Assembly (NCBI GenBank): GCA_003963005.1
Contig: RXJW01000046.1
Location: 62,001 to 126,000 of the forward strand
Length of the DNA: 64,000 nucleotides
Source: Burkholderiales bacterium
Lineage (GTDB): Bacteria; Pseudomonadota; Gammaproteobacteria; Burkholderiales; Burkholderiaceae_C
Reading direction: 5' to 3'
Numbering within the stretch: position 1 is the first letter of the stretch; every line of letters starts with the position of its first letter. The translations under genes and the position numbers were made by a program. Under the pieces are notes generated by a model. It worked only from the letters and a program-made list of their open reading frames with translations, ran no database searches and was not told the DNA's origin. Shown here piece by piece: positions 6,890 to 31,194 of this stretch.

Positions 6890-7002
6890 TGTCTCATGGC
6901 GAGTGCTGCGGTCGGCCTGAACTCTCGGCAGCCCTCGTCTCACGCCAAACGCTGGCCCGACCCGGCGCAACAGCCAGCGCCGGGCCCCTCCGCCCAGACT
7001 GC

Positions 7003-9637: not shown

Positions 9638-9658
9638 GGTGCGTTTCTCCTGCGTTGG

Positions 9659-11017: not shown

Positions 11018-11018
11018 G

Positions 11019-12409: not shown

Positions 12410-12421
12410 GCGAGGGCCGCG

Positions 12422-13198
12422 TCAGGGCTTCTGGAAGCCGTACTTCGCCAGCACAGCCTGGCCGGCGGGCGAGACCACGAACTCGACGAACTTGCGTGAC
12501 GCGTCGGCATTCGGCCCGCCGCTGACCACCGCGATGGGGTAGCTGATCGGCGTCTCGGTCGGCACGGTAAAGGCGACCTTGACCTTGTCCTTCTGCACGG
12601 CGGCATCGGTCGCGTAGACGAAGCCCGCCTCGACCTCGCCGCGGGCCACGTAGTCGAGCGCCTGGCGCACGTTGACGGCGTAGACGGCCTTGGCTTCGAC
12701 AGCGGACCACAGCTTGGCGGCTTCGAGCGCACCCTTGGCGTAGCGGCCTGCCGGCACGCCCTCGGGCTTGCCCAGCGCCAGGCGCTTGACTTCCGGCTTG
12801 CCCAGGTCCGCCAGCGACTTCAGCACCACGGTACTGTCAGATGGCTCGATCAGCACCAACGTGTTGTTGACGAAGTTGCGGCGCGAGCCGGCCACCAGCA
12901 GGTTCTGCGCCTGCGCCTTGTCCATGGTTTCCTGGTCGGCGGAGGCGAACACGTCAACCGGCGCACCCTTGGCGATCTGGGCCAGCAAGGCATCGGATGC
13001 GGCGAAATTGAACTGCAGCTTGGTGCCCGGGTTCTGAGCTTCGAAGGCGGGTGCCAGCTCCTTGAACGCATTCGTGAGGCTCGCGGCGGCCGACACCGTG
13101 AGGTCGGCGGCTTGTGCGGCGAGGCTGGCCAGACCGAGCGAGGCGGCAAGGCTGGCGAGGACGAGGTGGCGACGCAGGGACGGGCGGCTCGCGTTCAT
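12422..13198 (-). CDS. modA: molybdate-binding periplasmic protein
   Basis: This 258-residue protein has a signal peptide (about residues 1-30). A type II periplasmic binding fold follows, with VSAAASLTNAFKELAPAF, VDVFASADQ and a C-terminal VSPAGQAVLAKYGFQKP, all typical of ModA. It delivers molybdate to the ModBC transporter and is the first gene of the seven-gene minus-strand operon. Its upstream region contains an AT-rich stretch, ATATATAGCC at 13240-13249, that may be a degenerate half of a ModE site. Confidence 0.94.
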   Translation of the reverse strand: MNASRPSLRRHLVLASLAASLGLASLAAQAADLTVSAAASLTNAFKELAPAFEAQNPGTKLQFNFAASDALLAQIAKGAPVDVFASADQETMDKAQAQNLLVAGSRRNFVNNTLVLIEPSDSTVVLKSLADLGKPEVKRLALGKPEGVPAGRYAKGALEAAKLWSAVEAKAVYAVNVRQALDYVARGEVEAGFVYATDAAVQKDKVKVAFTVPTETPISYPIAVVSGGPNADASRKFVEFVVSPAGQAVLAKYGFQKP

Positions 13199-14664: not shown

Positions 14665-14752
14665 ATCACCAAAGCCGACGCTGCTGAGCGCCTGAACCGT
14701 GGGTGTCGCAAGTGGCAGTGCTGTAATTCGCGCACGACACCCAGCGCCTTCC

Positions 14753-15160
14753 ATGAGCACAGCCAAGACCGCTTCCGCAGCCAGCCCCGCCCGTGCAACC
14801 CGGGTCCGTCCCGAGCTACGGCTTCGCATGCGCGTGATGTGTGGCGACGTCAACGCCATCGGGCCGGGCAAGATCGAGCTGCTGGAGGCCATCCAGGAAC
14901 ACCGCTCGATCACCGCCGCCGCCAAGGCGCTGGGGATGTCCTACCGTCGCGCCTGGCTGCTCGTGGACGAGTTGAACCGCTCGCTCAAGGAACCCGCTGT
15001 CGAAACCGCGGCAGGGGGCGCTGGCGGCGGCGGAACAGCCTTGACCCCGATGGGGGTGAGGTTGCTGGGGCTGTACCGGGGCATCGAGTCGAAAGTGCAG
15101 GAGGCTTGCCGCGAGGACATCAAGCACCTCCTCGGCTTCGTGCAAGCCCCGCGTAGCTGA
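14753..15160 (+). CDS. ModE-like winged-helix regulator
   Basis: This 135-residue protein has a basic, disordered N-terminus (1-25). A ModE-type winged helix follows: IGPGKIELLEAI, then HRSITAAAKALGMSYRRAW as the helix-turn-helix (about 50-68) and a glycine-rich wing. It lacks the molybdate-binding C-terminal domains. The ATG at 14753 is used because upstream in-frame codons have no ribosome binding site. It is divergent from the DUF2325 gene across a ModE box and is the most likely protein to bind that box, together with the copy at 9659-10024. Confidence 0.83.
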   Translation: MSTAKTASAASPARATRVRPELRLRMRVMCGDVNAIGPGKIELLEAIQEHRSITAAAKALGMSYRRAWLLVDELNRSLKEPAVETAAGGAGGGGTALTPMGVRLLGLYRGIESKVQEACREDIKHLLGFVQAPRS

Positions 15161-15569: not shown

Positions 15570-16844
15570 TCAATCGGTCGTGCCATAGACCGTGGCGCCT
15601 CCCGGGCGGCTCAACACAGTCGTGTCGGCCACGACGCGGCGTATCTCCTGCATCAGCGCTCGCGCGCCGGGGGACGGGAAACAATGTTCACGCTGTGTGA
15701 GCCCGATCTGCCGGCGCGTGATCTCCATCGGGATCGCGAGTTCCACCAAGCTCCCGTTCAGGATCTCGTAGCGCAGCTGGTGGGCGGAGATGGCCGTCAC
15801 CATGTCGCTCTCAAGGAGCAGCGCACGCAGCACTGCCAGGTCGCCCGTCTCCACGGCAGGGACGGGCGCAGGGAGGTCCAGCGCAGCGAAGCACTGTTCG
15901 AAAAGCTCGCGAGAGGGTGCTCCTCGGCGTGACAACACCCATCGGGCGTTGCGCAGCGCGCCCAGGCCCTGGGTGACACGGGACAGCGGGTGACCTGCAC
16001 GCACGATGAGCGAGAGCCGGTCTTCGAACAGGGGCTCCACGGTCAGCTCCCGGGTCAGCTCGCCGGGCCGCAGAGCGCCCAGGATGAAATCCAGGTCGCC
16101 GCTGCGCAACGATGCCGCGAGCGCGTTGTAGGGACTCTCATCGGTGACGACATGCAGCCCGGGATGCTTGTCCAGCAGCGCAGCGATGGCCAAGGGCAGG
16201 ATGTGCGTGCGCCCCAGCGGCAACGCGCCCACGTACACGCTACCCGTCAACAAGCCTTCGCTGGCGGCAATGTCAGGAACGATGTTGCGCAGTTCTGCCA
16301 GCACCCGGCGGAAGTAGAAGGCCACGATCTCGCCGGCGGGCGTGGGCGCCAAGCCACGCGCAGTACGCTCGAACAGGGAGACGCCCAGTCGCGTCTCCAG
16401 GTCTTTCAGCGCGGCGCTCACGGCCGGCTGCGTGATGCCGAATTCGCGCGCAACAGCAGGCATGTTGCGCTTGTCCGCGAGGCTGGCCATCACCGCCAGC
16501 CGGCGCCCGTTCAGGATGGAGGCGAACAGCGATTTCGCGTCCGTGCCACCCTTGACGCCCCCGCGGGCCATCAACTGCGTACGCGCCGCCTCGAACTCGG
16601 CGTCGATGCGCCGCGCACGCACGAGCACGAGCTGGCCGTAGGCGTTGAGCGCGGTGCCCCTCGCGTGCCGTTCAAACAAGGGGCGCCCCAGTGCCGCCTC
16701 CAGTTCTGCGATGGAACGCGTGACCGCCGAAGAGACTCGGTACAGCGCCTCAGCCGCTGAGGCGATGCTGCCCGAGGCGGCTACCGCGCACAGGGCGTGC
16801 AGGTGCCGCAGGTTAAGGTCCAGCGATTCGACAGGGGTCGTCAT
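15570..16844 (-). CDS. LysR-family regulator with two HTH domains, gallate locus
   Basis: This protein has 424 residues, against about 300 for a usual LysR regulator. The extra length is a second N-terminal helix-turn-helix. HTH1 spans about 9-68 (SGSIASAAEALYRVSSAVTR). HTH2 spans about 113-172 (NMPAVAREFGITQPAVSAAL, then LGVSLFERTARG). The usual effector-binding domain follows from about 190. It is divergent from the aromatic-acid transporter, with 153 bp between them. By position it should regulate the downstream gallate genes, with gallate or a ring-cleavage product as inducer. The first HTH keeps the S-x-A-x-A-L pattern, so both may bind DNA. Confidence 0.85.
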   Translation of the reverse strand: MTTPVESLDLNLRHLHALCAVAASGSIASAAEALYRVSSAVTRSIAELEAALGRPLFERHARGTALNAYGQLVLVRARRIDAEFEAARTQLMARGGVKGGTDAKSLFASILNGRRLAVMASLADKRNMPAVAREFGITQPAVSAALKDLETRLGVSLFERTARGLAPTPAGEIVAFYFRRVLAELRNIVPDIAASEGLLTGSVYVGALPLGRTHILPLAIAALLDKHPGLHVVTDESPYNALAASLRSGDLDFILGALRPGELTRELTVEPLFEDRLSLIVRAGHPLSRVTQGLGALRNARWVLSRRGAPSRELFEQCFAALDLPAPVPAVETGDLAVLRALLLESDMVTAISAHQLRYEILNGSLVELAIPMEITRRQIGLTQREHCFPSPGARALMQEIRRVVADTTVLSRPGGATVYGTTD

Positions 16845-16870
16845 GGCTGTGAATCTTGGAGCGAGCGCCC

Positions 16871-16891
16871 GTTACAACTCTCCGTAGTAAC
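16871..16891. promoter_or_regulatory. LysR-type operator candidate, GTTAC-N11-GTAAC
   Basis: Perfect 5 bp arms, GTTAC (16871-16875) and GTAAC (16887-16891), are separated by 11 bp. This matches the T-N11-A geometry of LysR recognition sites. The site lies 26 bp from the regulator start and 106 bp upstream of the transporter start, in the expected activation region of the divergent gallate operon. Confidence 0.55.
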
Positions 16892-16997
16892 CCGGGTCGA
16901 TAAAAAAGTTTGATGCCTGAAAGGCTGGAACTCACGCCGCGTTGCGGGGCCGTTCGCCACACTCTGCGGCATCAAACAAAGACTTACGGAGACAACC

Positions 16998-18359
16998 GTG
17001 AACCGCGTACCGACCACCAAGGTAGACGTCAAGGCGTTCATCGACGAGCGCCCCATGGGGGCCATGCAGTGGCTGCTGCTGGTGCTGTGCTTCGCCATCG
17101 TGGCGCTGGATGGCATGGACGTGGCCATCATGGGTTTCCTGGCGCCGTCCATCCTGCAGGAATGGAACGTGTCACGCGCCGCCTTTGGCATGGTGATGAG
17201 TGCTGCACCGTTCGGCCTGGTCATCGGCGCGCTGCTGGCCGGCCCGGCATCGGACCGCATCGGCCGCAAGGTGGTGCTGATCGGCTCCGTGCTGCTGTTC
17301 GGCGTGTTCACGTTGGCGACGGCCTATGCAGGCAGCCTCACCGAGATGGCCGCGCTGCGGCTGCTGACCGGCATAGGGCTCGGTGCGGCCATGCCCAACA
17401 CCAGCACGCTGCTGTCGGAGTACGTGCCGCAGCGCTCGCGTTCGCTGCTGATCGCCGTGATGTTCACGGGGTTCAACTTGGGCTCCGGGGTCGTGGGGTT
17501 CATCGCCGCGGCCATGATCCCGTCCAGCGGCTGGCGCTCGGTGCTCATGCTGGGAGGCGTGCTGCCTCTGCTGCTGGTGCCGGTGCTGGTGGCACTGCTG
17601 CCGGAGTCGGCGCGCTTCCTGGTGGTGCGCCGTGCGGCAGCAGACAAGATCGGCCGAGTCCTGGGGCGCGTGGGCGGGGCGCAGTTCGCGCCGGGCACCG
17701 AGTTCTTTGCACCGGAGCCGCCCGTGCAGGCCGCCAAGTCCATCGGGGTGCTGTTCGCCAAGGGCTATGGGCTGATGACCGGCGCGCTGTGGGTCACCTA
17801 CTTCATGGGCCTGCTGGTGATCTACCTGCTCACGGGCTGGCTGCCGACGCTCATCAAGGACGCCGGGCTGCCCATCTCTCAGGCCGCCACCATCACGGCG
17901 ATGTTCCAGATCGGTGGCACGGTCGGCGCCATCCTGGTCGGCTGGGCCATGGACCGCAGGGCTCCCACTCGCGTGATCGGTGCAGCCTACGCGCTGGGGG
18001 CGGTGGCCATCCTCGCATTGGGCCTGGGCGGCGCGTTGTCGGGTTCCCTCGCGATGCTGGTCACGGCGGCAGGCTTTTGCATGAGTGGCGCGCAGACCGG
18101 CTTGAACGCCTTCGCTCCCAACTGCTACCCGACACGGGCACGCGCCACGGGCGTCAGCTGGATGCTGGGCATGGGGCGATTCGGCAGCATCACCGGCTCC
18201 ATGGTGGGCGGGGTGTTGCTGTCGCTGGGCTGGGGGTTCGGGTCCATCATCTGCCTTCTCGCCGTGCCGGCCATGCTGGCCGCACTCGCCATCCAGTTGG
18301 CGCGCCGCGCCGAGGAGCCGGAAGGGCATCAACTCGTCGGCAAGTCGGTCGCCGCCTGA
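16998..18359 (+). CDS. AAHS-family aromatic acid:H+ symporter, probable gallate transporter
   Basis: This 453-residue MFS protein has about 12 hydrophobic helices. The AAHS signature DGMDVAIMGF lies in helix 1 and GPASDRIGRK in loop 2-3. A second cytosolic loop has GWAMDRRAP. This family imports benzoate-type acids such as 4-hydroxybenzoate, protocatechuate and gallate (PcaK, GalT). It is the first gene of the plus-strand gallate operon, 25 bp before gallate dioxygenase, so gallate is the likely substrate. The start follows GGAGACAACC. Confidence 0.87.
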   Translation: MNRVPTTKVDVKAFIDERPMGAMQWLLLVLCFAIVALDGMDVAIMGFLAPSILQEWNVSRAAFGMVMSAAPFGLVIGALLAGPASDRIGRKVVLIGSVLLFGVFTLATAYAGSLTEMAALRLLTGIGLGAAMPNTSTLLSEYVPQRSRSLLIAVMFTGFNLGSGVVGFIAAAMIPSSGWRSVLMLGGVLPLLLVPVLVALLPESARFLVVRRAAADKIGRVLGRVGGAQFAPGTEFFAPEPPVQAAKSIGVLFAKGYGLMTGALWVTYFMGLLVIYLLTGWLPTLIKDAGLPISQAATITAMFQIGGTVGAILVGWAMDRRAPTRVIGAAYALGAVAILALGLGGALSGSLAMLVTAAGFCMSGAQTGLNAFAPNCYPTRARATGVSWMLGMGRFGSITGSMVGGVLLSLGWGFGSIICLLAVPAMLAALAIQLARRAEEPEGHQLVGKSVAA

Positions 18360-18384
18360 GTCACCCACGTACCGGAACTTCGCT

Positions 18385-19677
18385 ATGGCCACGATCATCG
18401 GCGGCATCGCCGCCTCGCACACGCCAACCATCGGCTTCGCCTTTGACCGCGACAAGCGTGACGACCCTGTCTGGGCGCCGATCTTCACCGCCTTCGCACC
18501 GGTGCAGGCCTGGCTCGAAGCCAAGCGGCCCGACGTGCTGCTGATGATCTACAACGATCACATCACGTCGTTCTTCTTCGACCACTACAGCGCCTTTGCA
18601 TTGGGGACCGGCGAGCGCTGGCAGCCAGCGGACGAAGGTGGCGGCGCGCGGGCATTGCCCGCCATCGACGGCGACCCTGCGTTCGCAGCGCATCTGGGCC
18701 GCTCGCTGATGGCCGACGAGTTCGACCTGAGCTTCTTTCAGCAGCGCGCGCTGGACCACGGCTGCTTTTCGCCGCTGTCGGTGCTGAGCCGCCATGACGG
18801 CCAGGCCTGGCCGCACCGCCTGGTGCCATTGCAGGTCGGCGTGCTGCAGTTCCCCATCCCCACGGCGCGGCGCTGCTACCGGCTCGGCCAGGCGTTGCGC
18901 AGGGCCATTGAAAGCTATCCGCAGGACATCAAGGTGGCCGTCGTCGCCACCGGCGGGCTGTCGCACCAGGTCCATGGCGAGCGCGCCGGCTTCAACAACA
19001 CCGCGTGGGACGAGCGCTTCCTCGACCTGTTCGAGAACGACCCCGCACAGCTCACGGCGATGACGCATGCCCAGTACGCGGAATTGGGCGGCATGGAGGG
19101 CAGCGAGGTCATCATGTGGCTGGTGATGCGCGGAGCGCTGGCCGAGCGCGTGCACTGCCTCCACCGCTCCTACTACCTGCCGTCCATGGCGGGCATTGCG
19201 ACGGCCATCTACGAGAACGCCGACAGCACGCCCACGGAGCCCAGTCGCGCCGACGAGCAGCTGGCCGGGATCGAACAGTTGCCCGGCACCTACCCCTTCA
19301 CCATCGAGCGTGGCGTGCGCTGCTACCGGCTCAACGCCTTCCTGCACGACCTGGTGGTGCCTGAGAAGCGCGCAGCCTTCCTGGCCGATGAGGAAGCCGC
19401 CTTCGAACTCGCCGCCTTGAGCGATCAGGAGCGCGATCTCGTGCGCCGCCGTGATTGGCGCGGCCTCATTCACTACGGCGCAATCTTCTTCGTGCTGGAG
19501 AAGCTGGGCGCGGTGGTGGGCGTGTCCAACCTCCACATCTATGCGGCGATGCGCGGCGAGTCGCTGGAGGCCTTCCAGGCCACGCGCAACACACGGGCGC
19601 TGTACTCGGTCGCAGGCCAGGACGCCGGCGCGCTGAAGTGGGATGCCCCTTCATCACCGCCCCAAGCCACCGATTGA
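18385..19677 (+). CDS. galA: gallate dioxygenase, extradiol
   Basis: This 430-residue type II extradiol dioxygenase fuses a LigB-like catalytic domain (about 1-285) with a LigA-like domain (about 290-420). That fusion and length are typical of GalA and DesB rather than two-subunit LigAB. Fe(II) ligand candidates are H12 (SHTP), H59 (YNDHI) and a glutamate in MEGSE (E239 or E241). H194 in GGLSHQ is the acid/base residue. The enzyme cleaves gallate to 4-oxalomesaconate. The neighbours supply uptake and the two later enzymes. Protocatechuate or methylgallate activity cannot be excluded by sequence alone. Confidence 0.9.
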   Translation: MATIIGGIAASHTPTIGFAFDRDKRDDPVWAPIFTAFAPVQAWLEAKRPDVLLMIYNDHITSFFFDHYSAFALGTGERWQPADEGGGARALPAIDGDPAFAAHLGRSLMADEFDLSFFQQRALDHGCFSPLSVLSRHDGQAWPHRLVPLQVGVLQFPIPTARRCYRLGQALRRAIESYPQDIKVAVVATGGLSHQVHGERAGFNNTAWDERFLDLFENDPAQLTAMTHAQYAELGGMEGSEVIMWLVMRGALAERVHCLHRSYYLPSMAGIATAIYENADSTPTEPSRADEQLAGIEQLPGTYPFTIERGVRCYRLNAFLHDLVVPEKRAAFLADEEAAFELAALSDQERDLVRRRDWRGLIHYGAIFFVLEKLGAVVGVSNLHIYAAMRGESLEAFQATRNTRALYSVAGQDAGALKWDAPSSPPQATD

Positions 19678-19698
19678 CAACAACAAGGAGACAACCCA

Positions 19699-20799
19699 GT
19701 GAAAACGCTGAAAACAGGAATGGCCGCTGCTGCCCTGCTGCTCTGCAGTGGCGCACAAGCTCAGAACGTGACGATCTACGGCCTGCTGGACCAGGCGGTC
19801 GAGCACCTGAACAACGTGGGCGCCTCCCACGGTTCGCTGACCCGCCTGCCGGGCCTGGCCGGCAGCTTCCCTTCGCGGCTGGGCTTCCGCGGCTCGGAGG
19901 ACCTGGGTGACGGCTTGAAGGCGGTCTTCACGCTGGAAATGGGCATGGGTCTGGACACCGGCACCCTGAACCAAGGCGGGCGCGCCTGGGGCCGCCAGGC
20001 CTTCGTGGGTTTGCAGGGCAGCTGGGGCACAGTGTCGCTGGGTCGGCAGTACTCGATGTTGTTCTGGTCGCAGCTGGACGCCGACATTCTGGGTCCCAAC
20101 ACCTTCGGCTCCGGGTCGCTGGACAACTACCTGCCCAACGACCGCGTCGACAACACCGTGGCCTATCGCGGCACCTTCAATGGCCTCACAGTCGGGGCGA
20201 CCTACAGCGTGGGCCGCGACTCTGTCAACGCGGGACCCAGTCCTTCGGGCACCAACTGTCCCGGCGAAAGCGCGGCGGACACATCGGCCTGCCGCCAGTG
20301 GTCGGCCATGCTGAAGTACGACACGCCCACCTGGGGTGCCGTGGCCGTGGTGGACGAGATCCGTGGCGGCGCGGGCGCGTTTGCGGGGCTGACCAGCAGC
20401 GCCATGAAGGACCGCCGCTCGTCGCTGGCGGGCTGGGTCAAGTTCGGCCCCGACATCAAGCTGGGCGCCGGCCTGATCGCACGCAAGAACGACGGCAGTG
20501 CCACCACACCGAAGAGCACGCTCTGGTACGTCGGCGGCACGTACAACCTCACACCCGTGTGGAGCACCGACGTGGAAGTCTTCAAGCTGGATTTCAAGGA
20601 CAGCGCCAACCAGGCCACGCTGTATGCGCTGCGCACCACCTACCAGTTCTCCAAGCGCACTGCCGTGTACGCCACTGGCGGGCACATCGCCAACGACGGC
20701 ACGCTGGCGCTGGGCGTGAGCAACGGCGCAGCCGGCGCGACGCCAGCCGCCGGCACGGGCCAGACCGGCATCGCTGTCGGCATCCGTCACGCCTTCTGA
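19699..20799 (+). CDS. Gram-negative trimeric porin
   Basis: This 366-residue outer-membrane barrel begins with a signal peptide (about residues 1-21). NVTIYGLLDQAVEHLNN, GSRLGFRGSEDLGDGLKAVF-type strands and a terminal GIRHAF are characteristic of beta-proteobacterial porins. A ribosome binding site AAGGAGAC precedes the start. In this operon it probably lets gallate or small galloyl compounds cross the outer membrane. It is not a TonB-type receptor and has no plug domain. Confidence 0.9.
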   Translation: MKTLKTGMAAAALLLCSGAQAQNVTIYGLLDQAVEHLNNVGASHGSLTRLPGLAGSFPSRLGFRGSEDLGDGLKAVFTLEMGMGLDTGTLNQGGRAWGRQAFVGLQGSWGTVSLGRQYSMLFWSQLDADILGPNTFGSGSLDNYLPNDRVDNTVAYRGTFNGLTVGATYSVGRDSVNAGPSPSGTNCPGESAADTSACRQWSAMLKYDTPTWGAVAVVDEIRGGAGAFAGLTSSAMKDRRSSLAGWVKFGPDIKLGAGLIARKNDGSATTPKSTLWYVGGTYNLTPVWSTDVEVFKLDFKDSANQATLYALRTTYQFSKRTAVYATGGHIANDGTLALGVSNGAAGATPAAGTGQTGIAVGIRHAF

Positions 20800-20820
20800 G
20801 CGCTGGTGCCACCGCACGAC

Positions 20821-21525
20821 ATGACAGTGGTTCTGCGAGGCATTTCGTCGATGGCCACCCAGGCGCTGCTGGCCGACCTGGCCGCCGCCTGTGAGCGCGA
20901 CACCGGCACGGTGCTGCGGTTCGAGTCGGTCGGCGGCGTCGATGCCGCAGCGCGCGTGCGTTCGGGAGAGGCCTTCGATCTGGTGGTCCTCGCCGACGCT
21001 GCCATCGCCCAGCTGCAGGCCGGTGGCCTTGTGGACAGTACGCCGCTGGAACTGGGCGCATCGGCCATGGCCGTGGCCGCGCCGGCGGGTGTCGAGCGGC
21101 CGGACGTAGGCTCGGTGGAGGCGCTGCGCGACGCCTTGCTGGCCGCGCCGCGCATCGCCTACTCCACCGGCCCCAGCGGCACTGCGCTGCTGATGCTGCT
21201 GGAGCGCTGGGGCCTGACCGACAGGCTGAAACCGCGGCTGGTCCAAGCCCGCCCGGGGGTGCCAGTGGCAGCACTGCTGGCGGCGGGCGAGGCACAGCTG
21301 GGATTCCAGCAGTTCAGCGAGCTTCAGGGGCAGCCCGGCATTGCACTGCTGGGCCCGATGCCCCCCGGCGCTGAGGTCGTCACGCGTTTCGTCGGTGCCG
21401 TGGCGGCTGCGTCGCAGCAGAGCCACCCTGCCCGCGCCGCGCTGGAATTCATGTCTGCGCCAGCGCGTGATGCGATCCGGCGCACCCACGGGATGTCATC
21501 CACAACAACAAGCAGTCAACCATGA
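20821..21525 (+). CDS. cytosolic periplasmic-binding-fold protein, SBP_bac_11-like
   Basis: This 234-residue protein has the fold of ModA-like substrate-binding proteins: a first strand LRGISSMATQALLADLAAAC, FDLVVLADAAI, and YSTGPSGTALLMLLERWGL. It has no signal peptide at either plausible start (ATG 20821 or GTG 20806), so it should be cytosolic. Its stop overlaps the start of the hydratase gene by 4 bp, so it is translationally coupled to a catabolic enzyme. It occupies a slot where many gallate operons encode an oxalomesaconate tautomerase. I cannot assign a function; ligand sensing or an enzymatic role are both open. Confidence 0.7.
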   Translation: MTVVLRGISSMATQALLADLAAACERDTGTVLRFESVGGVDAAARVRSGEAFDLVVLADAAIAQLQAGGLVDSTPLELGASAMAVAAPAGVERPDVGSVEALRDALLAAPRIAYSTGPSGTALLMLLERWGLTDRLKPRLVQARPGVPVAALLAAGEAQLGFQQFSELQGQPGIALLGPMPPGAEVVTRFVGAVAAASQQSHPARAALEFMSAPARDAIRRTHGMSSTTTSSQP

Positions 21526-22550
21526 TCATCGATGTACACGGCCACTACACAACCGCACCCGCGGCGCTGGGGGCTTGGCGCGATCTGCAAATCGCGGGCT
21601 TGAAGGACCCCAGCCTGAGGCCATCACCGGCGTCGCTGAAGATCAGCGACGACGAGTTGCGCGAATCCATCGAGACCAACCAGCTCGCCAAGATGCGAGA
21701 ACGCGGCATCGACCTGACCGTGTTCAGCCCGCGTGCCAGCTTCATGGCCCACCACATCGGCGACTTCGACACATCGGCCACCTGGGCGACGATCTGCAAC
21801 GAGCTGTGCCATCGCGTGAGCGCCATGTTCCCCGAGCATTTCGTCGGGGCGGCGATGCTGCCGCAAAGCCCCGGCGTGGCGCCGGCCAGCTGCATTCCGG
21901 AACTGGAACGCTGCGTCAGGGACTACGGCTTCGTCGGCATCAACCTCAACCCCGATCCGTCGGGCGGGCACTGGACGAGCCCACCGCTGACCGACCGGCA
22001 TTGGTACCCGCTGTACGAAAAGATGGTAGAGCTGGACATCCCGGCCATGATCCACGTCTCCACCAGCTGCAACGCATGCTTTCACACGACAGGCGCGCAT
22101 TACCTGAACGCAGACACGACGGCCTTCATGCAATGCCTGTCCGGTGATCTGTTCAAGGACTTCCCGACGCTGCGCTTCCTGATCCCGCATGGCGGCGGCG
22201 CCGTGCCCTACCACTGGGGGCGTTTCCGCGGTCTGGCCCAGGAGCTCAAGAAGCCGTTGCTGGAAGAACACCTGCTGCAGAACATCTTCTTCGACACCTG
22301 CGTCTATCACCAGCCCGGCATCGACCTGCTGACGGCCGTCATCCCCGTTGAGAACGTGCTGTTCGCCTCGGAAATGATCGGTGCCGTGCGAGGCGTGGAC
22401 CCACAGACCGGCCATCACTTCGACGACACGCGGCGCTACATCGAAGCCACGCCCCATCTCACCGAAGCGCAGCGACACCTGGTGTTCGAAGGCAATGCAC
22501 GGCGCGTGTTTCCTCGCCTGAACGCGAGGCTGAACCACAAGGGGCTTTGA
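21522..22550 (+). CDS. ligJ: 4-oxalomesaconate hydratase, amidohydrolase fold
   Basis: This 342-residue protein of the amidohydrolase superfamily matches LigJ. The zinc ligands fall at H6 and H8 (DVHGHY), H178 (MIHVS) and E284 (ASEM). H223 in IPHGGG is the general-base candidate; to my knowledge these are the positions described for Sphingobium LigJ. It adds water to the oxalomesaconate-derived substrate to give 4-carboxy-4-hydroxy-2-oxoadipate. It lies between the binding-protein-like gene and the aldolase, which starts 1 bp after its stop. Confidence 0.88.
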
Positions 22551-22551
22551 C

Positions 22552-23235
22552 ATGTACGAGCTGGGTGTTGTCTACCGCAATATCGAACGCGCCGACCGCG
22601 CCACGGCGGATGCCTTGGCTGCCCTGGGTTCGGCCACGGTGCATGAAGCCATGGGCCGTGTGGGCCTGCTGAAGCCCTACATGCGGCCCATCTACGCCGG
22701 GGCACAGGTCAGCGGCACCGCCGTCACCGTCTTGCTGCACCCGGGGGACAACTGGATGATGCATGTCGCGGCAGAGCAGATCCAGCAGGGCGACATTGTC
22801 GTCGCCGCCATCACGGCGGAATGCACCGACGGCTACTTCGGCGACCTGCTGGCGACCAGCTTCCAGTCGCGGGGCGCCCGTGCGCTGATCATCGATGCCG
22901 GCGTGCGCGACATCAAGACACTGACCGAGATGCGCTTCCCCGTCTGGAGCAAGTGTGTCTCAGCGAAAGGCACCATCAAGGCCACGCTCGGTTCGGTCAA
23001 CATCCCGGTGGTGTGCGCCGGCATGTGGGTGACGCCAGGCGACGTGATCGTGGCGGACGACGACGGTGTGGCCTGCGTGCCGCGCGGCCTGGCCGCCAAG
23101 ACCCTGGCCGCTGCGCAAGCGCGCGAGCGCCACGAAGGCGCCAAGCGTGAGCAGCTCGCTGCTGGCGTGCTGGGGCTCGACATGTACAAGATGCGGCCAG
23201 CGCTGGAGCAGGCCGGGTTGCGATACGTCGACTGA
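22552..23235 (+). CDS. ligK: 4-carboxy-4-hydroxy-2-oxoadipate aldolase
   Basis: This 227-residue class II (metal-dependent) aldolase belongs to the RraA/HMG-CHA aldolase family. It shows [12 protein letters not shown] at the N-terminus, [14 protein letters not shown] in the middle and the metal/pyruvate-binding AGVRDIKTL, with R119 and D120. It splits CHA to pyruvate and oxaloacetate, the final step of gallate meta-cleavage, and may also decarboxylate oxaloacetate as homologues do. It is the last gene of the plus-strand operon that starts with the transporter. Confidence 0.9.
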
Positions 23236-23593
23236 CCCTTCGAGGCCTCAGCGCCGGGTCAACCCCGCGATGACGTCACCCGACGCCGGCGCGCTTGATT
23301 CGCGCTGCATGGCCATGTGCGCGCTGGTTCGCAGGGGCTCCGCACATTCGCCACGCCGACCGTGCAGGCACGGCAACCGCGACGTCGGCACCCGGGATCG
23401 TTCGCCGGCCCGCAGCTTGGGATGCCGAGGGAGGGCTAGAGCTTGGTCCCCGGGAGACAGGAAGCTCATCAGCCGCCGCGATTTCCGACATCGGGTCGGC
23501 CAGGTGAAGCTCTGCAAAGCTCAAGTGAGTCGCTGGACGAAGAGGAAGTTACGATATATCGTAGATGCATCTAAAACACATCATAAGTGCATC
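23236..23593. other. gap before PadR gene, 358 bp
   Basis: No gene is supported. The distal 50 bp are AT-rich and carry palindromes, and they form the promoter of the PadR-like gene. The proximal 250 bp show a minus-strand open frame of 89 codons without a recognisable domain. I treat it as non-coding. Confidence 0.4.
23550..23563. promoter_or_regulatory. palindrome TACGATATATCGTA, PadR operator candidate
   Basis: A perfect 14 bp palindrome in an AT-rich island lies 30 bp upstream of the PadR-like start. ATGCAT motifs follow closely at about 23565 and at the start codon. PadR regulators, including the YqjI subgroup, autoregulate from such AT-rich dyads, so this is the most likely operator for this gene and its downstream operon. 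Confidence 0.55.
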
Positions 23594-24268
23594 ATGCATC
23601 CACGACAGATCTTCTTCGACCGGCGCTCAGCCGGGGCGCCCTCGTCACCCTTGCGGCAGGGCGAGCGCGGTACTCATCAGCCGCGTCACGGCCTGCCGGG
23701 CTGGCAGGCCATCGGGCGCGGCGGCCACCGTGGGCCGGCTGAGGGCGGCTTCGGTCGCCACGGCGGTGGCCCGGGCGGGCACGGTGGCGGCCACGGCCGC
23801 GGCGGGCGCATGTTCGAGGCCGGCGCGATCAAGCTGCTGGCGCTGAGCCTGGTCGCCGAGCGGCCCAGCTACGGCTACGAGCTCATCAAGTTCATCGAGG
23901 GCCTGGTAGGCGGCGACTACAGCCCGAGCCCGGGCGTCATCTACCCGACGCTGACCTACCTGGTGGACATGGGCTGGGCGACGGTGGCGGACGGTGACGC
24001 CGGCCGCAAGCAGTACACGGTGACACCTGAAGGCCTCGCGCAACTGGAGCGCCAGCGCGACGAACTGAGCGCCCTGACCGAACGGCTGCGCGGCGTGCGA
24101 GAGGGCGCGGGTGCCCGGCGCTCGCCGGACATCGAGCGCGCCATGGGCAACCTGAAGGCGGTGCTGCACATGCGCTTTTCGCCGGCCACTGCCAGCCCCG
24201 ATCTCGCCCGGCGCGTGGCCGCGCTGATCGACGAGGCCGCGCTCGCCATCCAGAAGCTGGAGGTCTGA
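23594..24268 (+). CDS. PadR-family regulator, YqjI-like, Gly/His-rich N-terminus
   Basis: This 224-residue protein has a Gly/His/Arg-rich segment (about 28-72, with repeated GGHG) in front of a PadR winged helix (73-155: KLLALSLVAERPSYGYELIK, SPSPGVIYPTL, then AGRKQYTVTPEG). A helical C-terminal dimerisation part follows. This layout matches the nickel/iron-responsive YqjI regulators, where the His-rich tail binds metal. The start at 23594 is the first ATG that includes the His-rich part without running into upstream non-coding DNA. The next gene begins 2 bp after its stop, and the tannase follows, so it may control both. Confidence 0.82.
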   Translation: MHPRQIFFDRRSAGAPSSPLRQGERGTHQPRHGLPGWQAIGRGGHRGPAEGGFGRHGGGPGGHGGGHGRGGRMFEAGAIKLLALSLVAERPSYGYELIKFIEGLVGGDYSPSPGVIYPTLTYLVDMGWATVADGDAGRKQYTVTPEGLAQLERQRDELSALTERLRGVREGAGARRSPDIERAMGNLKAVLHMRFSPATASPDLARRVAALIDEAALAIQKLEV

Positions 24269-24270
24269 CG

Positions 24271-24582
24271 ATGAAGCAGCACCGTTACCGCGTGACTGTC
24301 GAACACCTCGCCCTGCCGGACGGCAGCCCGCCGCCCACACCGCAGCCGCTGAGCTTCGAGGCCGGCAACCATGACGACATCCTCGCCATCGTGGCCCGCA
24401 TGCGCCAGCGCGGCGACCTGCCCGAGGCGGACGCCACCGCTCTGGCCGTGGGCCTGAAGCTGTTCAGCGAGGTCATGCTGCAGCACCGCGGCCTGCCCTT
24501 GTTCGCCGGCTTCACGCCGCACTTCAAGGCCTTCATGCAGCAGCTCAAGCGCGGCCCGGCTGCCTCGCAGGCCCTGCCATGA
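24271..24582 (+). CDS. DUF3861 protein
   Basis: This 103-residue soluble protein matches DUF3861. It has MKQHRYRVTVEHL at the start, then a NHDDILAIVARMR helix and AVGLKLFSEVML. No function is known for the family. It lies between a PadR-like regulator (2 bp upstream) and a tannase (ATGA overlap), so the three genes form an operon. Distant relatives occur beside YqjI/YqjH-type metal genes, but that link is from memory and uncertain. Confidence 0.75.
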   Translation: MKQHRYRVTVEHLALPDGSPPPTPQPLSFEAGNHDDILAIVARMRQRGDLPEADATALAVGLKLFSEVMLQHRGLPLFAGFTPHFKAFMQQLKRGPAASQALP

Positions 24583-26090
24583 ACCGCCGCCAGTTCACCC
24601 AGGCCCTGCTAGCCATGGCCGCCACCGGCGCAGGTGGTGCATCCCGCGCCGCCGATGCGGGCGCCGACCCGCTGCGGCCGGACCTCAGCCGCTACACCAC
24701 GCAGGACATCACGGTCGGCGGGCAGACCCTGCGGGTGCGGGCCTTCGAAGGCCTGCCCACGGTGGCGCGCCCGCTGGAGCCGGCCTACCAGGCGATAAAC
24801 CTCTACGTGCCCGAAGCCTACTTCGAGGGCGGCCATATCGGCGCCTTCGAAGCCCGCACGGCGCCCATCTTCCTGCCCAATGCGGTGGGCGGCTACATGC
24901 CAGCTAAGCCGGGTACGCTGGTCAACCGCATGCCGCCTCCGCCGGGCCAGGCTGCGCTGCCGAATGCCAGTGCTGTGGCCCTGTCACGCGGCTTCGTGGT
25001 GGCTGCACCCGGCGCACGGGGTCGCACGCTGCAGGCCGTCGACGGCCGCTGGACGGGCAAGGCGCCCGCCGCCATCGTCGACCTGAAGGCCGCCGTGCGC
25101 TGGCTGCGCCACAACGCCGGCCGCCTGCCGGGGAACGTCGACCGCATCGTCTCCAACGGCACCAGCGCGGGCGGAGCACTGTCCGCCCTTTTGGGCGCCA
25201 GCGGCAACCATCCCGACTATGAGGCCGAGCTGCGCGCCCTGGGCGCTGTGACGGCGCGCGACGATGTGTTCGCCATCTCGGCCTACTGCCCGATCACCAA
25301 CCTCGCCCATGCCGACGAAGCCTACGAATGGCAGTTCCAGGGCCTGCGCGAGTACCGCAACGTGGCCATCTCGATGTTGGACTTCCGCGTGCAGCGCAAG
25401 GAGGTGGTCGGCCAGCTCGACGACGCCCAGCGGGCGTTGTCTGCCGAACTGCGGGACGGTTTCGTCAGCTACGTGAACCGACTGGGACTGAGCACCGAAG
25501 ACGGCCGTGGGCTGACCCTGCGCCCCGACGGCAGCGGACCGCTTCGCGATCACATCGCGGCGCTGCTGCAGGCCTCGGCCCAGCAAGCGCTGGACGCTGG
25601 CCAGGACCTGTCAGGCACCGGATGGCTGCAGCTGCACGAAGGCCGGGTGCAGGCCGTGGACTTTTCTGGCTATGCCCGCGGCGTCGGTCGCATGAAGGCC
25701 CTGCCCGCCTTCGACGGCCTTGCGCTGGAAACGGGCGAGAACCAGCTGTTCGGAGACAGCCGCATCGACAAGCGCCACTTCACCCCTTTTTCGGCGCGGC
25801 ACAGCCAGGTGCCCGGCGCGGCCCAGGCGGATGCCGCTACCGTCAAGGCCATGGACGGCATGCAACAGCTGGCCGACGCCCGCTCGACCGTCGCCCGCCA
25901 TTGGCGCATCCGCCATGGCAGCGTGGACCGCGACACCTCGCTGGCCGTGCCCGCGCTGCTCGCCGCCGCGGCACGCCGGCGCGGTGCGACCGTGGACCTC
26001 GCCCTGCCCTGGGGCCGACCGCACAGCGGCGACTACGACCTGGAGGCGCTCTTCGATTGGGCAGAGTCCATGGTTCGCGGATCGACCTGA
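24579..26090 (+). CDS. subtype B tannase (tannin acyl hydrolase), exported
   Basis: This 503-residue alpha/beta hydrolase has a possible twin-arginine signal (NRRQFTQ, hydrophobic to about residue 25). The nucleophile S196 lies in NGTSAGG. An acid residue lies in VDRDTS (D450 or D452), and H482 in PHSGDYD completes the triad. This order and spacing match the bacterial TanB enzyme of Lactobacillus plantarum. It releases gallate from gallotannins or galloyl esters. It lies 1.3 kb downstream of a complete-looking gallate ring-cleavage operon, which supports the call. Confidence 0.88.
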   Translation: MNRRQFTQALLAMAATGAGGASRAADAGADPLRPDLSRYTTQDITVGGQTLRVRAFEGLPTVARPLEPAYQAINLYVPEAYFEGGHIGAFEARTAPIFLPNAVGGYMPAKPGTLVNRMPPPPGQAALPNASAVALSRGFVVAAPGARGRTLQAVDGRWTGKAPAAIVDLKAAVRWLRHNAGRLPGNVDRIVSNGTSAGGALSALLGASGNHPDYEAELRALGAVTARDDVFAISAYCPITNLAHADEAYEWQFQGLREYRNVAISMLDFRVQRKEVVGQLDDAQRALSAELRDGFVSYVNRLGLSTEDGRGLTLRPDGSGPLRDHIAALLQASAQQALDAGQDLSGTGWLQLHEGRVQAVDFSGYARGVGRMKALPAFDGLALETGENQLFGDSRIDKRHFTPFSARHSQVPGAAQADAATVKAMDGMQQLADARSTVARHWRIRHGSVDRDTSLAVPALLAAAARRRGATVDLALPWGRPHSGDYDLEALFDWAESMVRGST

Positions 26091-26992: not shown

Positions 26993-27235
26993 ACCAAGCC
27001 CCAAAGTTGCGTCGAATTACACACCCCCTTCGCGTAAACCCGAGCCCCGCTTCGCGAGCGCCGTGACCCGTTCCCCCGCGCCCGCATGCGGTTATTCCGG
27101 TTTTGCATGACCCACCCGATCCCGGTGGTTACGGCGTGATTACATTGGATTCGACAATCCGCTTCCTCGGGCGCGGTGTGCTTGGGCCAGCGGTACGGCT
27201 GACCCAAACACATTCCCATGATTGGAGCTTTCGCC

Positions 27236-29110
27236 ATGAACCAACCCGCGATGCAGGGCCTGCGCCTGAGCCTGCCTGCCTATGTCAAACACGCCCGGCT
27301 GATTGCCTGGGTGGCCGAGATCGCCGCGCTGACCGAAGCCGCGGACGTCTATTGGTGTGACGGCAGCACCGACGAGTACCACCGCCTGTGCGACCAGCTC
27401 GTGGCGGCCGGCACCTTCAAGAAACTGAACCCCGAGCTGCGCCCGGGCAGCTTCCTGGCCAACTCCGACCCGAGCGACGTCGCCCGCGTGGAAGACCGCA
27501 CCTTCATCTGCTCCGAAAACAAGGAAGACGCCGGCCCGACCAACAACTGGATGGCGCCCGCCGCGATGCGCGAGCTGCTGCAGACCGGCGAGCAGGCCCT
27601 GTTCAAGGGCTGCATGCGTGGCCGCACGCTCTACGTCGTGCCGTTCAGCATGGGGCCGCTGGGCTCGCCCATCGCCCACATCGGCGTCGAGCTGAGCGAC
27701 AGCCCCTACGTGGCCGTGAACATGCGCACCATGACGCGCATGGGCCGCGCGGTCATCGAGCTGCTGGGCACCGACGGCGAGTTCGTGCCCTGCGTGCACA
27801 CCGTGGGCGCGCCGCTGGCGGAAGGCCAGAAGGACGTGGCCTGGCCGTGCAACCCGACCAAGTACATCGTCCACTACCCCGAGACGCGCGAAATCTGGAG
27901 CTACGGCTCCGGCTACGGTGGCAACGCGCTGCTGGGCAAGAAGTGCTTCGCGCTGCGCATCGCGTCCACCATGGGCCGCGACCAGGGCTGGCTCGCCGAG
28001 CACATGCTCGTGCTGGGCGTGGAGAGCCCCGCGGGCAAGAAGTACCACGTGGCTGCTGCCTTCCCGAGCGCCTGCGGCAAGACGAACTTCGCGATGCTGA
28101 TCCCGCCGAAGACCTTCGCCGGCTGGAAGATCACGACCATCGGTGACGACATCGCCTGGATCAAGCCGCACGCCGACGGCAAGCTCTACGCGATCAACCC
28201 CGAGGCCGGCTATTTCGGCGTCGCCCCGGGCACCAACTCGCACACCAACCCGAACTGCATGGCGAGCCTGGCGCGCGACGTGATCTTCACGAACGTGGCG
28301 CTGACCGACGACGGCGACGTGTGGTGGGAAGGCATGACCGACACCCCGCCGGCCCACTGCATCGACTGGCAAGGCAAGGACTGGACGCCCGAGATCGCCC
28401 GGGCGACCGGCGCGAAGGCCGCGCACCCGAACGCCCGCTTCACGGTGGCCGCCACCAACAACCCGGCGCTCGACGCCGCCTGGGACGACCCCGCCGGCGT
28501 GCCGATCGACGCCTTCATCTTCGGCGGCCGCCGCTCCACCACGGTGCCGCTCGTGACCGAGGCGCGCGACTGGACCGAGGGCGTCTACATGGCCGCGACC
28601 ATGGGCAGCGAGACCACCGCTGCCGCCGCCGGCCAGCAGGGCGTCGTGCGCCGCGATCCGTTCGCGATGCTGCCCTTCATGGGCTACAACATGAGCGACT
28701 ACTTCCAGCACTGGCTGGACCTGGGTGCCCGACTGCAGGCCCAGGGCGCGAAGCTTCCGGCCATCTACTGCGTGAACTGGTTCCGCAAGGGCGCCGACGG
28801 CAAGTTCGTCTGGCCCGGCTACGGCGAGAACATGCGCGTGCTGAAGTGGATGCTGGACCGCCTGGAAGGCACGGGCCGCGGCGAGGAACACGTCTTCGGC
28901 GTGACGCCCGGCTACGACGACCTGACCTGGGACGGCCTGGCCTTCTCCCGCGAGCAGTTCGACACCGTCACCCGCATCGACGCCGCCGAATGGCAGGCCG
29001 AACTGAAGCTGCACGACGAGCTCTTTGCGCAGCTCGCCCACCACCTGCCCGCCGCGCTGCCCGCCGTCAAGGCGCGCATCGAGGAGCGCCTCGCCCAAGA
29101 GGCGGGCTGA
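27236..29110 (+). CDS. pckG: phosphoenolpyruvate carboxykinase (GTP)
   Basis: This 624-residue GTP-type PEPCK shows the kinase loop [13 protein letters not shown], an upstream substrate loop with [15 protein letters not shown], the metal-binding block [10 protein letters not shown], and [12 protein letters not shown]. It converts oxaloacetate to PEP for gluconeogenesis, matching a lifestyle that feeds on aromatic acids and acetate-level carbon. The start at 27236 follows GGAG at 27224; an ATG 18 bp earlier has no good site. A strong terminator follows. Confidence 0.96.
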
Positions 29111-29203: not shown

Positions 29204-30952
29204 TCAGGGCCAGGCCTTCAGCGTTGACGTGTTGCTGCCGCCCTGGCAGCGCGCCGGGTCGCCCGCGTCGTTGATGACGTGGTCGATGCTGCCCTTGTCC
29301 ACGAGGCAGACCGTGATCATGTGCGTGAACCGCACGCCGGGCGCGCGCGGCGCCTCGATGGCGCGGTCCAGCCGCACGCCGGGCTGCAGGAACACGCTGT
29401 AGATGCCCAGCCCCCAGGCCTCGTGCCGGGTGACCGCTGGGTCGACAAGGTAGGCCGGGTGGCCGTCGCCGTGGTCGCTGCGCCAGGCCGCCTGGGTGGG
29501 CGGGTCGTAGGGCAGCTCCGATTGGTAGAAGTAGACCCGCCCGCCATTGCCGCGCCACACCACCTGTGCCTGCTGGAAATGCTCGACGAAGAGGCCGTAG
29601 ACCGTCACATCCTCGCCCTCGACCCAGAGCCCGTGCGCGGCCGGGTTGCTCGTCCAGCCGACGCCGGCGCCATGGTCGGCGCGCCACAGCCAGGTGTGGT
29701 CGACCAGCGTGTCGTGCGCGTGGATGCGCAGCGCGGTCGTCACCTGCCCGGGTGCCGCACCGCCGATGCGGAAGAACACGTCGTGCAGCACCGTCGGGTC
29801 GGCGCGGTGCCGCTGGCGGCTGCCCGGCGGGCCCACCTCCATCAGCACCCCAGCGTCTTGCGCGCCGGCGTCCAGGAACAGGCCGGCCACGGTGATGCCG
29901 TCCACGTCGGCCGTCTTGACGAGCGGCTGGCCGTTGTCCGAGCGCAGCGTGGGCAGGCCGATGCCCAGCACCACGGTGCCCGGCCGCGTGATGCGCAGCG
30001 TTTCGGTGAACAGGTACTCGCCTGGCGTGAACAGCAGGTGCTTGCCGGCAGCGAGCTGCGCGTTGAGCGCCGCGGCCGTCTCGCCCGGGCGGGCGATGTG
30101 AAAGCGCGCCAGCGGCAGCGTCTTGCCGGGCTCGGAGCGCCCACCGGCCCACGACACGCCGACGCTGTTGCGCTTGAGCGCCGGCACGCGCACGGCATAG
30201 CGGCCCCGCGCGTCGATGACGAGGTAGGGCTTCTCGCGCACGAGCGGGGTGCGCTCGATCTTGGTGTAACGCTGCCCGGGCGTCGGGAACTCGCCCTCGG
30301 GCGCGCCGCGCACGCCGACGAACACCATGTTCCAGTTCGAGCCCGTCCAGCGCCCCCAGGCGCTGTTGCGCGACAGCCATTGCTGCTGTGTGGCCGAGTT
30401 GACCGTGCCGTCCACGAGCACGTCGGCAAACCAGCCGCCGCTGGACCAACCCTCGTTCTGGTTCAGCCGCATGTTGCCGCGCACATGCATGCGCCGGAAC
30501 GGGATGGCCTGCGACACTGCCCACTGCATCGTGTTGTCGCCGATGCCGAGCGTGGGCGTGACCGAAAAGTTCTCGGCGCCGCGCCAGAAGTTCTGCGTCG
30601 CGTTGTCGTCCAGGAAGGCCGTGGAGCGCAGGTCGCCGATGACGTGCACGTCGTCCGGATGCGCGCCCAGCCCCAGCACCTGCGTGAAGAAGCCGACGGG
30701 GATGCGCAGGTCGCGGTAGGTGCCCGGCTTCAGCAGGATCGCATCGCGCCGCGGGCCGAAGTGGTTGGGCTGCTGGGCGGCGTAGATGTCGTCGATGCGC
30801 TGCTGCAGGCCGGGCGTGGCCGGGTCCAGCACGTGGACGTTGGGGCCGAAGTCGGGCTCGCGGGCGGCGGCCAGGGTGGTGCCGGCGGCCAGCAGCGAGG
30901 CGAGCCAGCGACAGGCCCAGGTCCGGCGGCGGAGGGGCAATGGAGGGGTCAT
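29204..30952 (-). CDS. secreted beta-helix protein, adenylyl-cyclase/coagulation-factor-annotated family
   Basis: This 582-residue exported protein has a signal peptide (about residues 1-28). FGPNVHVLDP, NFWRGAENFSVTP and AVSQAIPFRRMHVRG are conserved in a family often annotated coagulation factor 5/8 or adenylyl cyclase. The fold is a right-handed beta-helix like pectate lyases and GH55. A carbohydrate-active role is probable but not proven. The ATG at 30952 gives the signal peptide. A LacI-type palindrome lies 45 bp upstream, consistent with sugar control. Confidence 0.7.
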   Translation of the reverse strand: MTPPLPLRRRTWACRWLASLLAAGTTLAAAREPDFGPNVHVLDPATPGLQQRIDDIYAAQQPNHFGPRRDAILLKPGTYRDLRIPVGFFTQVLGLGAHPDDVHVIGDLRSTAFLDDNATQNFWRGAENFSVTPTLGIGDNTMQWAVSQAIPFRRMHVRGNMRLNQNEGWSSGGWFADVLVDGTVNSATQQQWLSRNSAWGRWTGSNWNMVFVGVRGAPEGEFPTPGQRYTKIERTPLVREKPYLVIDARGRYAVRVPALKRNSVGVSWAGGRSEPGKTLPLARFHIARPGETAAALNAQLAAGKHLLFTPGEYLFTETLRITRPGTVVLGIGLPTLRSDNGQPLVKTADVDGITVAGLFLDAGAQDAGVLMEVGPPGSRQRHRADPTVLHDVFFRIGGAAPGQVTTALRIHAHDTLVDHTWLWRADHGAGVGWTSNPAAHGLWVEGEDVTVYGLFVEHFQQAQVVWRGNGGRVYFYQSELPYDPPTQAAWRSDHGDGHPAYLVDPAVTRHEAWGLGIYSVFLQPGVRLDRAIEAPRAPGVRFTHMITVCLVDKGSIDHVINDAGDPARCQGGSNTSTLKAWP

Positions 30953-30996
30953 GTCTCGTCTCGTCGGCGTGCCGTAGGTGCGGATGAGGGGATCAG

Positions 30997-31012
30997 TTGG
31001 AATCGGTTCCAA
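30997..31012. promoter_or_regulatory. LacI-family operator candidate
   Basis: TTGGAATCGGTTCCAA is a near-perfect 16 bp palindrome with a central CG and one mismatched pair, the classic LacI/GalR operator form. It lies 45-60 bp upstream of the secreted beta-helix gene. A LacI-type regulator gene lies 7.4 kb away at 38458. Confidence 0.7.
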
Positions 31013-31194
31013 CCACATTGGAACATGCGCGGGCGAGGAGGGCCTTCAGGGATAGCCCGCCGGTGAGCGGAGGCTCTTGGGCTTGCTCGGCGAACTGCTC
31101 AATGTGTGGTCGCCCAGGAGCGTGCGAACGTCCGAATGCGCGTGCGACCGGCAGCGGTGGCTGATGCACGGTCGGCGACCTGTTGCCTCACCGC

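Follow-up and report, generated by a model that had tools for sequence, protein, structure and literature searches.

A stretch of 64,000 nt on contig RXJW01000046.1 of a Burkholderiales bacterium (the window) carries, between positions 15570 and 26090, a gallate gene set and a separate operon in which a PadR-family regulator and a DUF3861 protein precede a tannase. A 239-residue open reading frame (20806–21525), missed in the original prediction for this DNA, lies between the porin and ligJ genes of the gallate set and encodes a protein with the ModA-like periplasmic binding protein (PBP) type II fold. This ModA-like protein is the worthwhile part of the locus, since comparison with other genomes supports it well as a candidate for the isomerase that the pathway otherwise appears to lack.

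The gallate set begins with a minus-strand GalR-like LysR regulator (15570–16844). Downstream on the plus strand are an AAHS-family aromatic acid/H+ symporter (GalT/PcaK-like MFS; 16998–18359), the gallate dioxygenase GalA (18385–19677), a porin (Porin_4; 19699–20799; Pfam PF13609, 1.2e-47), the ModA-like gene, a LigJ-type hydratase (Amidohydro_2; 21522–22550; PF04909, 4.1e-55) and the LigK aldolase (22552–23235). The regulator and transporter genes are 153 nt apart, and the gaps from the transporter to ligK, taken from the coordinates, are 25, 21, 6, -4 and 1 nt in order; the gap between the porin and ModA-like genes is 21 nt instead of 6 if the latter starts at the alternative ATG at 20821. 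A spacing of 358 nt separates ligK from the second plus-strand operon, which consists of the PadR gene (23594–24268; PF03551, 4.1e-13; start picked by reading frame), the DUF3861 gene (24271–24582; PF12977, 2.8e-33) and the tannase gene (24579–26090), with a gap of 2 nt and then an overlap of 4 nt. The tannase, porin, AAHS transporter, gallate dioxygenase, hydratase and aldolase named in the original prediction are all located here by Pfam and NCBIfam models.

Equivalog-level NCBIfam matches are obtained for GalA (NF009904, 739 bits against a cut-off of 412), LigK (TIGR02798, 403 bits against 304.5) and the tannase. GalA also aligns with the solved gallate dioxygenase 3wku (4e-161). The hydratase has no match in the NCBIfam scan; it is closest to the solved 4-oxalomesaconate hydratases 2gwg (1e-195) and 6dxq (2e-150), and is of the LigJ and not the GalB type. 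The transporter scores below the curated cut-offs of both TIGR00895 (389 bits against 418.55) and NF053517 (488 bits). In the regulator, two tandem N-terminal HTH_1 domains precede the LysR effector domain (LysR_substrate), an arrangement shared by all five galA-linked relatives scanned (loci L187, L182, L183, L185 and L048; L and G mark our loci and genomes). No GalR operator motif was found in the 153-nt gap between galR and the MFS gene, and scans for sigma-70 promoters and terminators found none of the former and two sites resembling the latter, each count being below the shuffle mean. The earlier reading of a route from gallate to central metabolism holds for GalA, the LigJ type and LigK, whose identities rest on family models and solved structures, and there is good sequence support for calling these genes an operon for gallate catabolism. 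By similarity tests for GalA at E<=1e-60 and LigJ at E<=1e-90, the locus is the genome's only route through 4-oxalomesaconate (OMA), because each protein has a single match in the genome. The pairing of PadR with tannase and the ModA-like gene aside, the gene content is ordinary for the group.

An OMA isomerase is needed between ring cleavage and hydration, a step assigned to GalD in Pseudomonas putida and to LigU in Sphingobium sp. SYK-6 in passages of PMC9942251, PMC12314914 and PMC6888825. Measured against a gal-type gallate operon, the locus has the gallate dioxygenase, the OMA/KCH hydratase (of the LigJ type) and the CHA aldolase, and lacks the GalD/LigU tautomerase. No tautomerase of that type was found in the window, and a genome-wide PF04303 search returned no protein of NF033377 grade. 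The single PF04303 gene of the genome is prpF (TIGR02334, 734 bits), which adjoins acnD and prpC in a methylcitrate cluster and fails the OMA_tautomer model NF033377 with 266 bits against a cut-off of 440. The description of the locus as complete-looking therefore does not hold for the classical enzyme set; it would hold only if the overlooked ModA-like gene performs the OMA isomerase step.

The ModA-like protein matches Pfam SBP_bac_11 and is modeled by AlphaFold with a pLDDT of 94.9. Its best solved matches are PBP2/ModA proteins at ∼20% identity (TM 0.70–0.86 among the first 20), and Foldseek places it in the PBP type II fold (7tav, TM 0.84; 1wod, TM 0.80). It shares this fold with the molybdate-binding protein ModA and differs from it in the equivalog modA score, in the export signal and in the adjacent ABC transporter partners: against the TIGR01256 cut-off of 62.5 bits, the window protein scores 20.8, a third of the required value, and a Comamonas homologue 36.8. 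An alignment (A1) of 16 of the 17 candidate homologues, with L086 omitted for its interrupted frame, has a mean column identity of 62% and the invariant or near-invariant blocks SSMAT, SVGGVDA, STGPSG and GFQQ-SE; the segment GFQQFSEL of the window protein aligns with GFVYATDA in the ModA of the same window. Residues S11, T14, D42, R46, R140, Q164, Q165 and E168, numbered by the first row of A1, do not vary. In the 16 homologues little separates the chosen start codon from the conserved core, and no signal-like stretch can be made out by eye. In four of them (the window protein, L090, L094 and L095), an in-frame stop lies 11–18 codons ahead of the conserved SSMAT (15 in the window protein), too close for a signal peptide to fit in between. 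The gallate locus L187 contains, near its cytosolic ModA-like protein, a second SBP-like protein (6928–7683) that is 36% identical and has a signal-like start by eye.

The distribution of the gene was compared with that of the GalD/LigU type. A draw on the phylum gave 397 genomes, and LigJ is present in 39 of them at E<=1e-90. ModA-like orthologues were defined by scores of at least 270 bits (lowest 274, next 182) and the GalD/LigU type by PF04303 matches of ∼300–410 bits, with prpF-like genes scoring above 500. The 39 genomes comprise 15 with a ModA-like gene and 23 with the GalD/LigU type, including one with both (G581), and two with neither (G399 and G402), an alternation with a Fisher p of 1.1e-7 that is not corrected for phylogeny. 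The ModA-like gene is present in 14 of the 16 LigJ genomes that have no GalD/LigU type. PF04303 genes are wholly absent from eight of the 39, seven of which carry the ModA-like orthologue (G114, G087, G091, G070, G042, G190 and G189). The distance to ligJ is no more than ∼4 kb for the ModA-like gene in 12 of 15 genomes and no more than ∼8 kb for the GalD/LigU type in 20 of 23. The LigJ proteins of G399 and G402 are 65% and 53% identical, and their genes have different surroundings.

The alternation recurs within a single genus, where 53 genomes divide into 28 with the ModA-like gene (lowest 300 bits, next 181), 20 with the GalD/LigU type (303–377 bits), none with both and five with neither (Fisher p 2.6e-10, again not corrected for phylogeny). 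Twenty-two operons were picked for inspection among the 48 genomes that carry one of the two genes, and in all 22 one or the other fills the slot immediately preceding pmdK-ligJ or ligJ, ModA-like in nine and tautomerase in 13. The ModA-like genes are followed in 9/9 cases by pmdK-ligJ-ligK-ligI-ligA/B; the tautomerase genes are followed directly by ligJ in four loci (L237, L238, L241 and L243) and by pmdK-ligJ in the other nine. A PrpF-like gene that passes NF033377 (L178) matches the solved OMA delta-isomerase 6p3h.

Gallate loci display the same exclusion. Thirty-three loci were compared together with the window, L164 and L040 lying on one contig and counted once, and L098 and L047 also sharing a contig. 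LigJ is found in the stretch in 19 gallate loci, or 18 after removal of one duplicate, and these hold a ModA-like gene in 10 and a tautomerase in eight, never both and never neither; four of the 10 ModA-like loci (L098, L171, L177 and L212) had been selected for carrying the gene. Two draws made with GalA give 28 distinct loci, 13 with ligJ, and exactly one of the two genes is present in 13/13 (five ModA-like, eight tautomerase). The other 15 loci, with no LigJ in the stretch, include one ModA-like gene (L038), one tautomerase (L216) and 13 with neither. The position of the ModA-like gene varies among gallate loci, being before ligJ (window, L039 and L171), after ligK (L185, L212 and L213) or after galA (L187). 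As read from gene content, the mutual exclusion in gallate clusters is the pattern of non-homologous enzyme replacement.

A search of named genomes with the window protein alone gave no matches; the alignment A1 succeeded as a query and returned at least 458 relatives, of which the best 80 loci were analyzed. The titles of these 80 name genera that we take to be Betaproteobacteria, or only Proteobacteria/Pseudomonadota. LigJ is present in 67/80; among the 76 loci that have more than 1.2 kb of downstream sequence, 61 have it in the same orientation and no more than 3.5 kb downstream. The usual order is ModA-like, LigJ, LigK, LigI, LigA, LigB and LigC. The ModA-like gene lies at most 185 nt from ligJ in 57 of 64 measured loci, the run ModA-like-ligJ-ligK-ligI has no gap above 250 nt in 19 of the 57 loci holding all four genes, and ligK and ligI are at most 224 nt apart in 23 of 56. 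Plasmid homologues, annotated as 'substrate-binding domain-containing protein', extend the range: in Pseudarthrobacter phenanthrenivorans Sphe3 and in Arthrobacter keyseri 12B, it comes after ligJ, ligK, ligI, ligAB, ligC and a gene for an aldo/keto reductase, and a plasmid of Paraburkholderia largidicola has galA-ligJ-ligK-ModA-like, just these in a row. A search for OMA tautomerase in the 80 loci and four plasmid loci yielded just one 24-residue fragment (E 6e-4).

The pmd operon of Comamonas sp. E6 reportedly reads pmdUKEFDABC and is said to serve protocatechuate cleavage. Operons of the pmd layout have a ModA-like or GalD-type gene before pmdK-ligJ-ligK; the window operon differs from the pmd operon in cleaving gallate, not protocatechuate. 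The gene pmdU is listed together with ligU and galD for the OMA isomerase step in passages of PMC12314914. Equating the ModA-like gene simply with PmdU was considered and set aside; its position fits in Comamonas terrae and C. kerstersii, but the PrpF type takes the same slot in 13/22 of the genus loci, so position is not decisive. The ModA-like gene is possibly already known genetically as PmdU. LigU of Sphingobium sp. SYK-6, an OMA delta-isomerase (passages of PMC6888825; solved structure 6p3h), acts at the step proposed for the ModA-like protein, and its type occupies the same operon slot in relatives; it belongs to the PrpF family, in contrast to the PBP type II fold of the ModA-like protein. 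The gal cluster of P. putida KT2440 (galTAP, galBCD and galR; passages of PMC9942251 and PMC12314914) has the LysR activator, MFS transporter, gallate dioxygenase, porin and aldolase in common with the window. Here, a LigJ-type hydratase stands in the place of GalB and the ModA-like gene in that of GalD, and one gene run from transporter to ligK replaces the two operons of KT2440. In Sphe3, the protocatechuate pathway is described as one transcript and pcaT is labeled 'ABC-type molybdate transport system' (passages of PMC8431788); matched by gene order, this transport-labeled pcaT (L209) is a homologue at 47% identity and the last gene of the co-transcribed operon. Passages of PMC8431788, PMC12314914, PMC11676683, PMC13141888, PMC6888825 and PMC9942251 contain no mention of an isomerase role for a ModA-like protein.

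The tannase is of subtype B (NF041556, 627 bits against a cut-off of 300) and matches tannases of known structure at 1e-119. The solved tannase 4j0c can be aligned to it from end to end, with the segments NGTSAGG (Ser196), RIRHGSVDRDTS and PHSGDYD (His482) in register, and an N-terminus (MNRRQF...) that looks signal-like by eye agrees with its description as exported. The separate operon with a metal-type regulator is also borne out, in the form of PadR-DUF3861-tannase with a His/Gly-rich PadR. The PadR pairing is rare, and a tannase beside galA is common (6/13 galA loci in the family). Tannases of the window type at E<=1e-60 occur in four of 200 family genomes, the source genome included, a limit too strict to capture the longer and divergent subtype B tannases adjoining galA in those six loci. 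These six are 28.6–32.5% identical to the window tannase; their assignment to subtype A was rejected, as all six score as subtype B (320–379 bits, NCBIfam). Among the other three family genomes, G170 has PadR with tannase, G194 has tannase without PadR, and G053 has PadR and DUF3861 (96% and 87% identical) followed by a tannase match to residues 1–206 only, with stops (L052, 9352–9972); galA was not found in the 20 kb examined around any of the three tannase loci. In G913, from another family, a tannase without PadR lies downstream of both ligK (∼6 kb) and galA (∼8 kb). Downstream of the window tannase is a GTP-type phosphoenolpyruvate carboxykinase (27218–29110), which would use the oxaloacetate made by LigK, perhaps by chance.

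The PadR protein has seven His and 23 Gly in its first 72 residues. Its relatives at E<=1e-12 are found in 21 of 150 genomes, the source genome included, and a gene for a siderophore-interacting protein is present in 11 of the 21 loci (seven, chosen by eye, were confirmed with Pfam). A perfect palindrome, TACGATATATCGTA (23550–23563, no strand), stops 30 nt short of the PadR start and is the only copy in the window at up to two mismatches, with none in 100 shuffles; its core, GATATATC, lies upstream of PadR in 18/21 loci (absent from L203, L204 and L206). A siderophore-interacting gene beside PadR is the arrangement of YqjI/YqjH in Escherichia coli. With the YqjI/NfeR type the window protein shares the His-rich tail and PadR domain, and here the partners are DUF3861 and tannase. 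From these features we infer a metal-type, auto-repressing PadR with the palindrome as its proposed operator, and the signal for the tannase may be a metal and not gallate, because the PadR group adjoins siderophore-interacting genes in those 11 loci and has a common operator core. Tannins are strong metal chelators, which fits such a switch. Growth on tannic acid would not be automatic: the operator core of the PadR group is present in the tannase promoter, and the 20 kb examined around the module in G053 and G170 contain no galA, so that the tannase may not share the regulation of the gallate genes.

The alternative that the tannase serves plain gallate nutrition, with PadR responding to a phenolic ligand like the classical PadR regulators of phenolic acids, keeps a substantial share of the probability, though less than half. 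The founding members of the PadR family do respond to phenolic acids, the tannase begins 1.3 kb after ligK, and subtype B tannases lie by galA in the six family loci and ∼8 kb from it in G913. Against a phenolic ligand stand the His/Gly-rich tails seen by eye in several PadR relatives, the siderophore-interacting neighbors, the shared operator core and the absence of galA from the 20 kb examined around the module in G053 and G170. Metal control has its own weak points, namely that 10/21 PadR loci have no siderophore-interacting match and that the argument for it is drawn wholly from the relatives and the His/Gly-rich tail.

Taken together, the locus is best read, with a probability of roughly 0.7, as a gallate operon with a substitute, non-homologous OMA isomerase (the ModA-like protein) and a tannase operon under a metal-type PadR. 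Judged by the families they belong to, the porin and the AAHS symporter would import gallate and GalA would open the ring to give OMA. The cytosolic ModA-like protein would then convert OMA to the KCH isomer used by LigJ, the task of GalD/LigU of the PrpF family elsewhere, in which case a binding-protein fold has turned from oxyanion carriage to tricarboxylate handling. LigJ is predicted to hydrate the isomerized product and LigK to split it to pyruvate and oxaloacetate, and the tandem-HTH LysR protein is the likely activator. The probably exported tannase forms the second operon, in which PadR probably represses its own promoter through the palindrome; once induced, the tannase would supply gallate, the inducing signal being somewhat more likely a metal than gallate.

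Among other roles for the ModA-like protein, the one that survives best, and still an improbable one, is that of an accessory binder (a cytosolic chaperone for OMA or its product, a sensor or an anti-toxicity factor), with OMA isomerization being spontaneous or performed by LigJ. The solute-binding protein fold suits this role, and the cleavage product of protocatechuate undergoes keto-enol tautomerism in solution; the same source describes the gallate cleavage product only in the keto form (passages of PMC8431788). The alternation in one operon slot with a bona fide isomerase family, with almost no coexistence, also speaks against a mere binder. It is very unlikely that prpF, as a moonlighting 2-methylaconitate isomerase, makes the ModA-like gene unneeded: PrpF and GalD/LigU do form one family, but NF033377 places the PrpF of this genome far under its cut-off, and seven of the 39 LigJ genomes have no PF04303 gene and yet carry the ModA-like gene. 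Least probable of all is a role in an ABC transporter as its molybdate or substrate binder, as the SBP_bac_11 match, the plasmid annotations and the label on the gene fitting by order in passages of PMC8431788 would have it, for the window protein has no room for a signal peptide, scores a third of the modA cut-off, has GFQQFSEL for GFVYATDA and neighbors the porin and ligJ with no ABC genes, a modABC-like set being elsewhere in the window.

Several observations weigh against the ModA-like protein as the isomerase. Proteins of the PBP fold normally bind and do not catalyze, and co-occurrence with slot swapping falls short of proving catalysis. The ligK-ligI gap is at least 896 nt in 33 of the 56 named loci, which is space for a further gene, and other candidates are found there, a TctC-like gene in L160 (by eye) and DUF1932 in L211. 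In 12 of the 16 aligned homologues, the absence of a signal peptide depends on the chosen start, and a longer frame in L129 carries a hydrophobic stretch before the core. The ModA-like gene is far from ligJ in three of 15 phylum genomes (19 kb in G070, 60 kb in G087, another contig in G189). One genome has both genes, and neither is present in two of the 39 LigJ genomes and in five of the 53 genus genomes, where LigJ was not searched. Three genomes (G589, G603 and G617) combine the ModA-like gene with unclassed PF04303 fragments of 44–140 bits. The class limits were chosen after the two score groups had been viewed, both Fisher values ignore phylogeny, and just three GalD/LigU-type genes were checked against NF033377, all three of which pass.

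The remaining features of the window are neighbors of the locus. The minus strand near the gallate genes (9209–13198) encodes a molybdate ABC system, NifQ and two further proteins, one with a Mop domain and one with a ModE-like HTH, a set perhaps related to nitrogen fixation, and a second ModE-like HTH lies at 14699–15160. A 604-residue open reading frame at 29204–31018 has no Pfam match at E<=0.001.

The wider proposal is more tentative, and we hold it at somewhat below even odds: a widespread family that is annotated as a molybdate or substrate binder and occurs in Betaproteobacteria and on Arthrobacter-group plasmids may be an unrecognized cytosolic OMA isomerase of PBP fold, repeatedly swapped with the unrelated LigU/GalD type at the same slot and found here beside a metal-tied tannase. 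In P. putida, the effector of GalR is OMA (passages of PMC9942251); if this also applies here, the isomerase would set the inducer level too. If the proposal is true, many genomes that seem one enzyme short in the pathway for lignin- and tannin-derived aromatics would be complete, the common 'substrate-binding' annotation would be wrong, and a binding-protein fold would have become an isomerase, with natural swaps inside a single genus that allow testing. A metal-type tannase switch would likewise tie tannin hydrolysis to the handling of iron or nickel.

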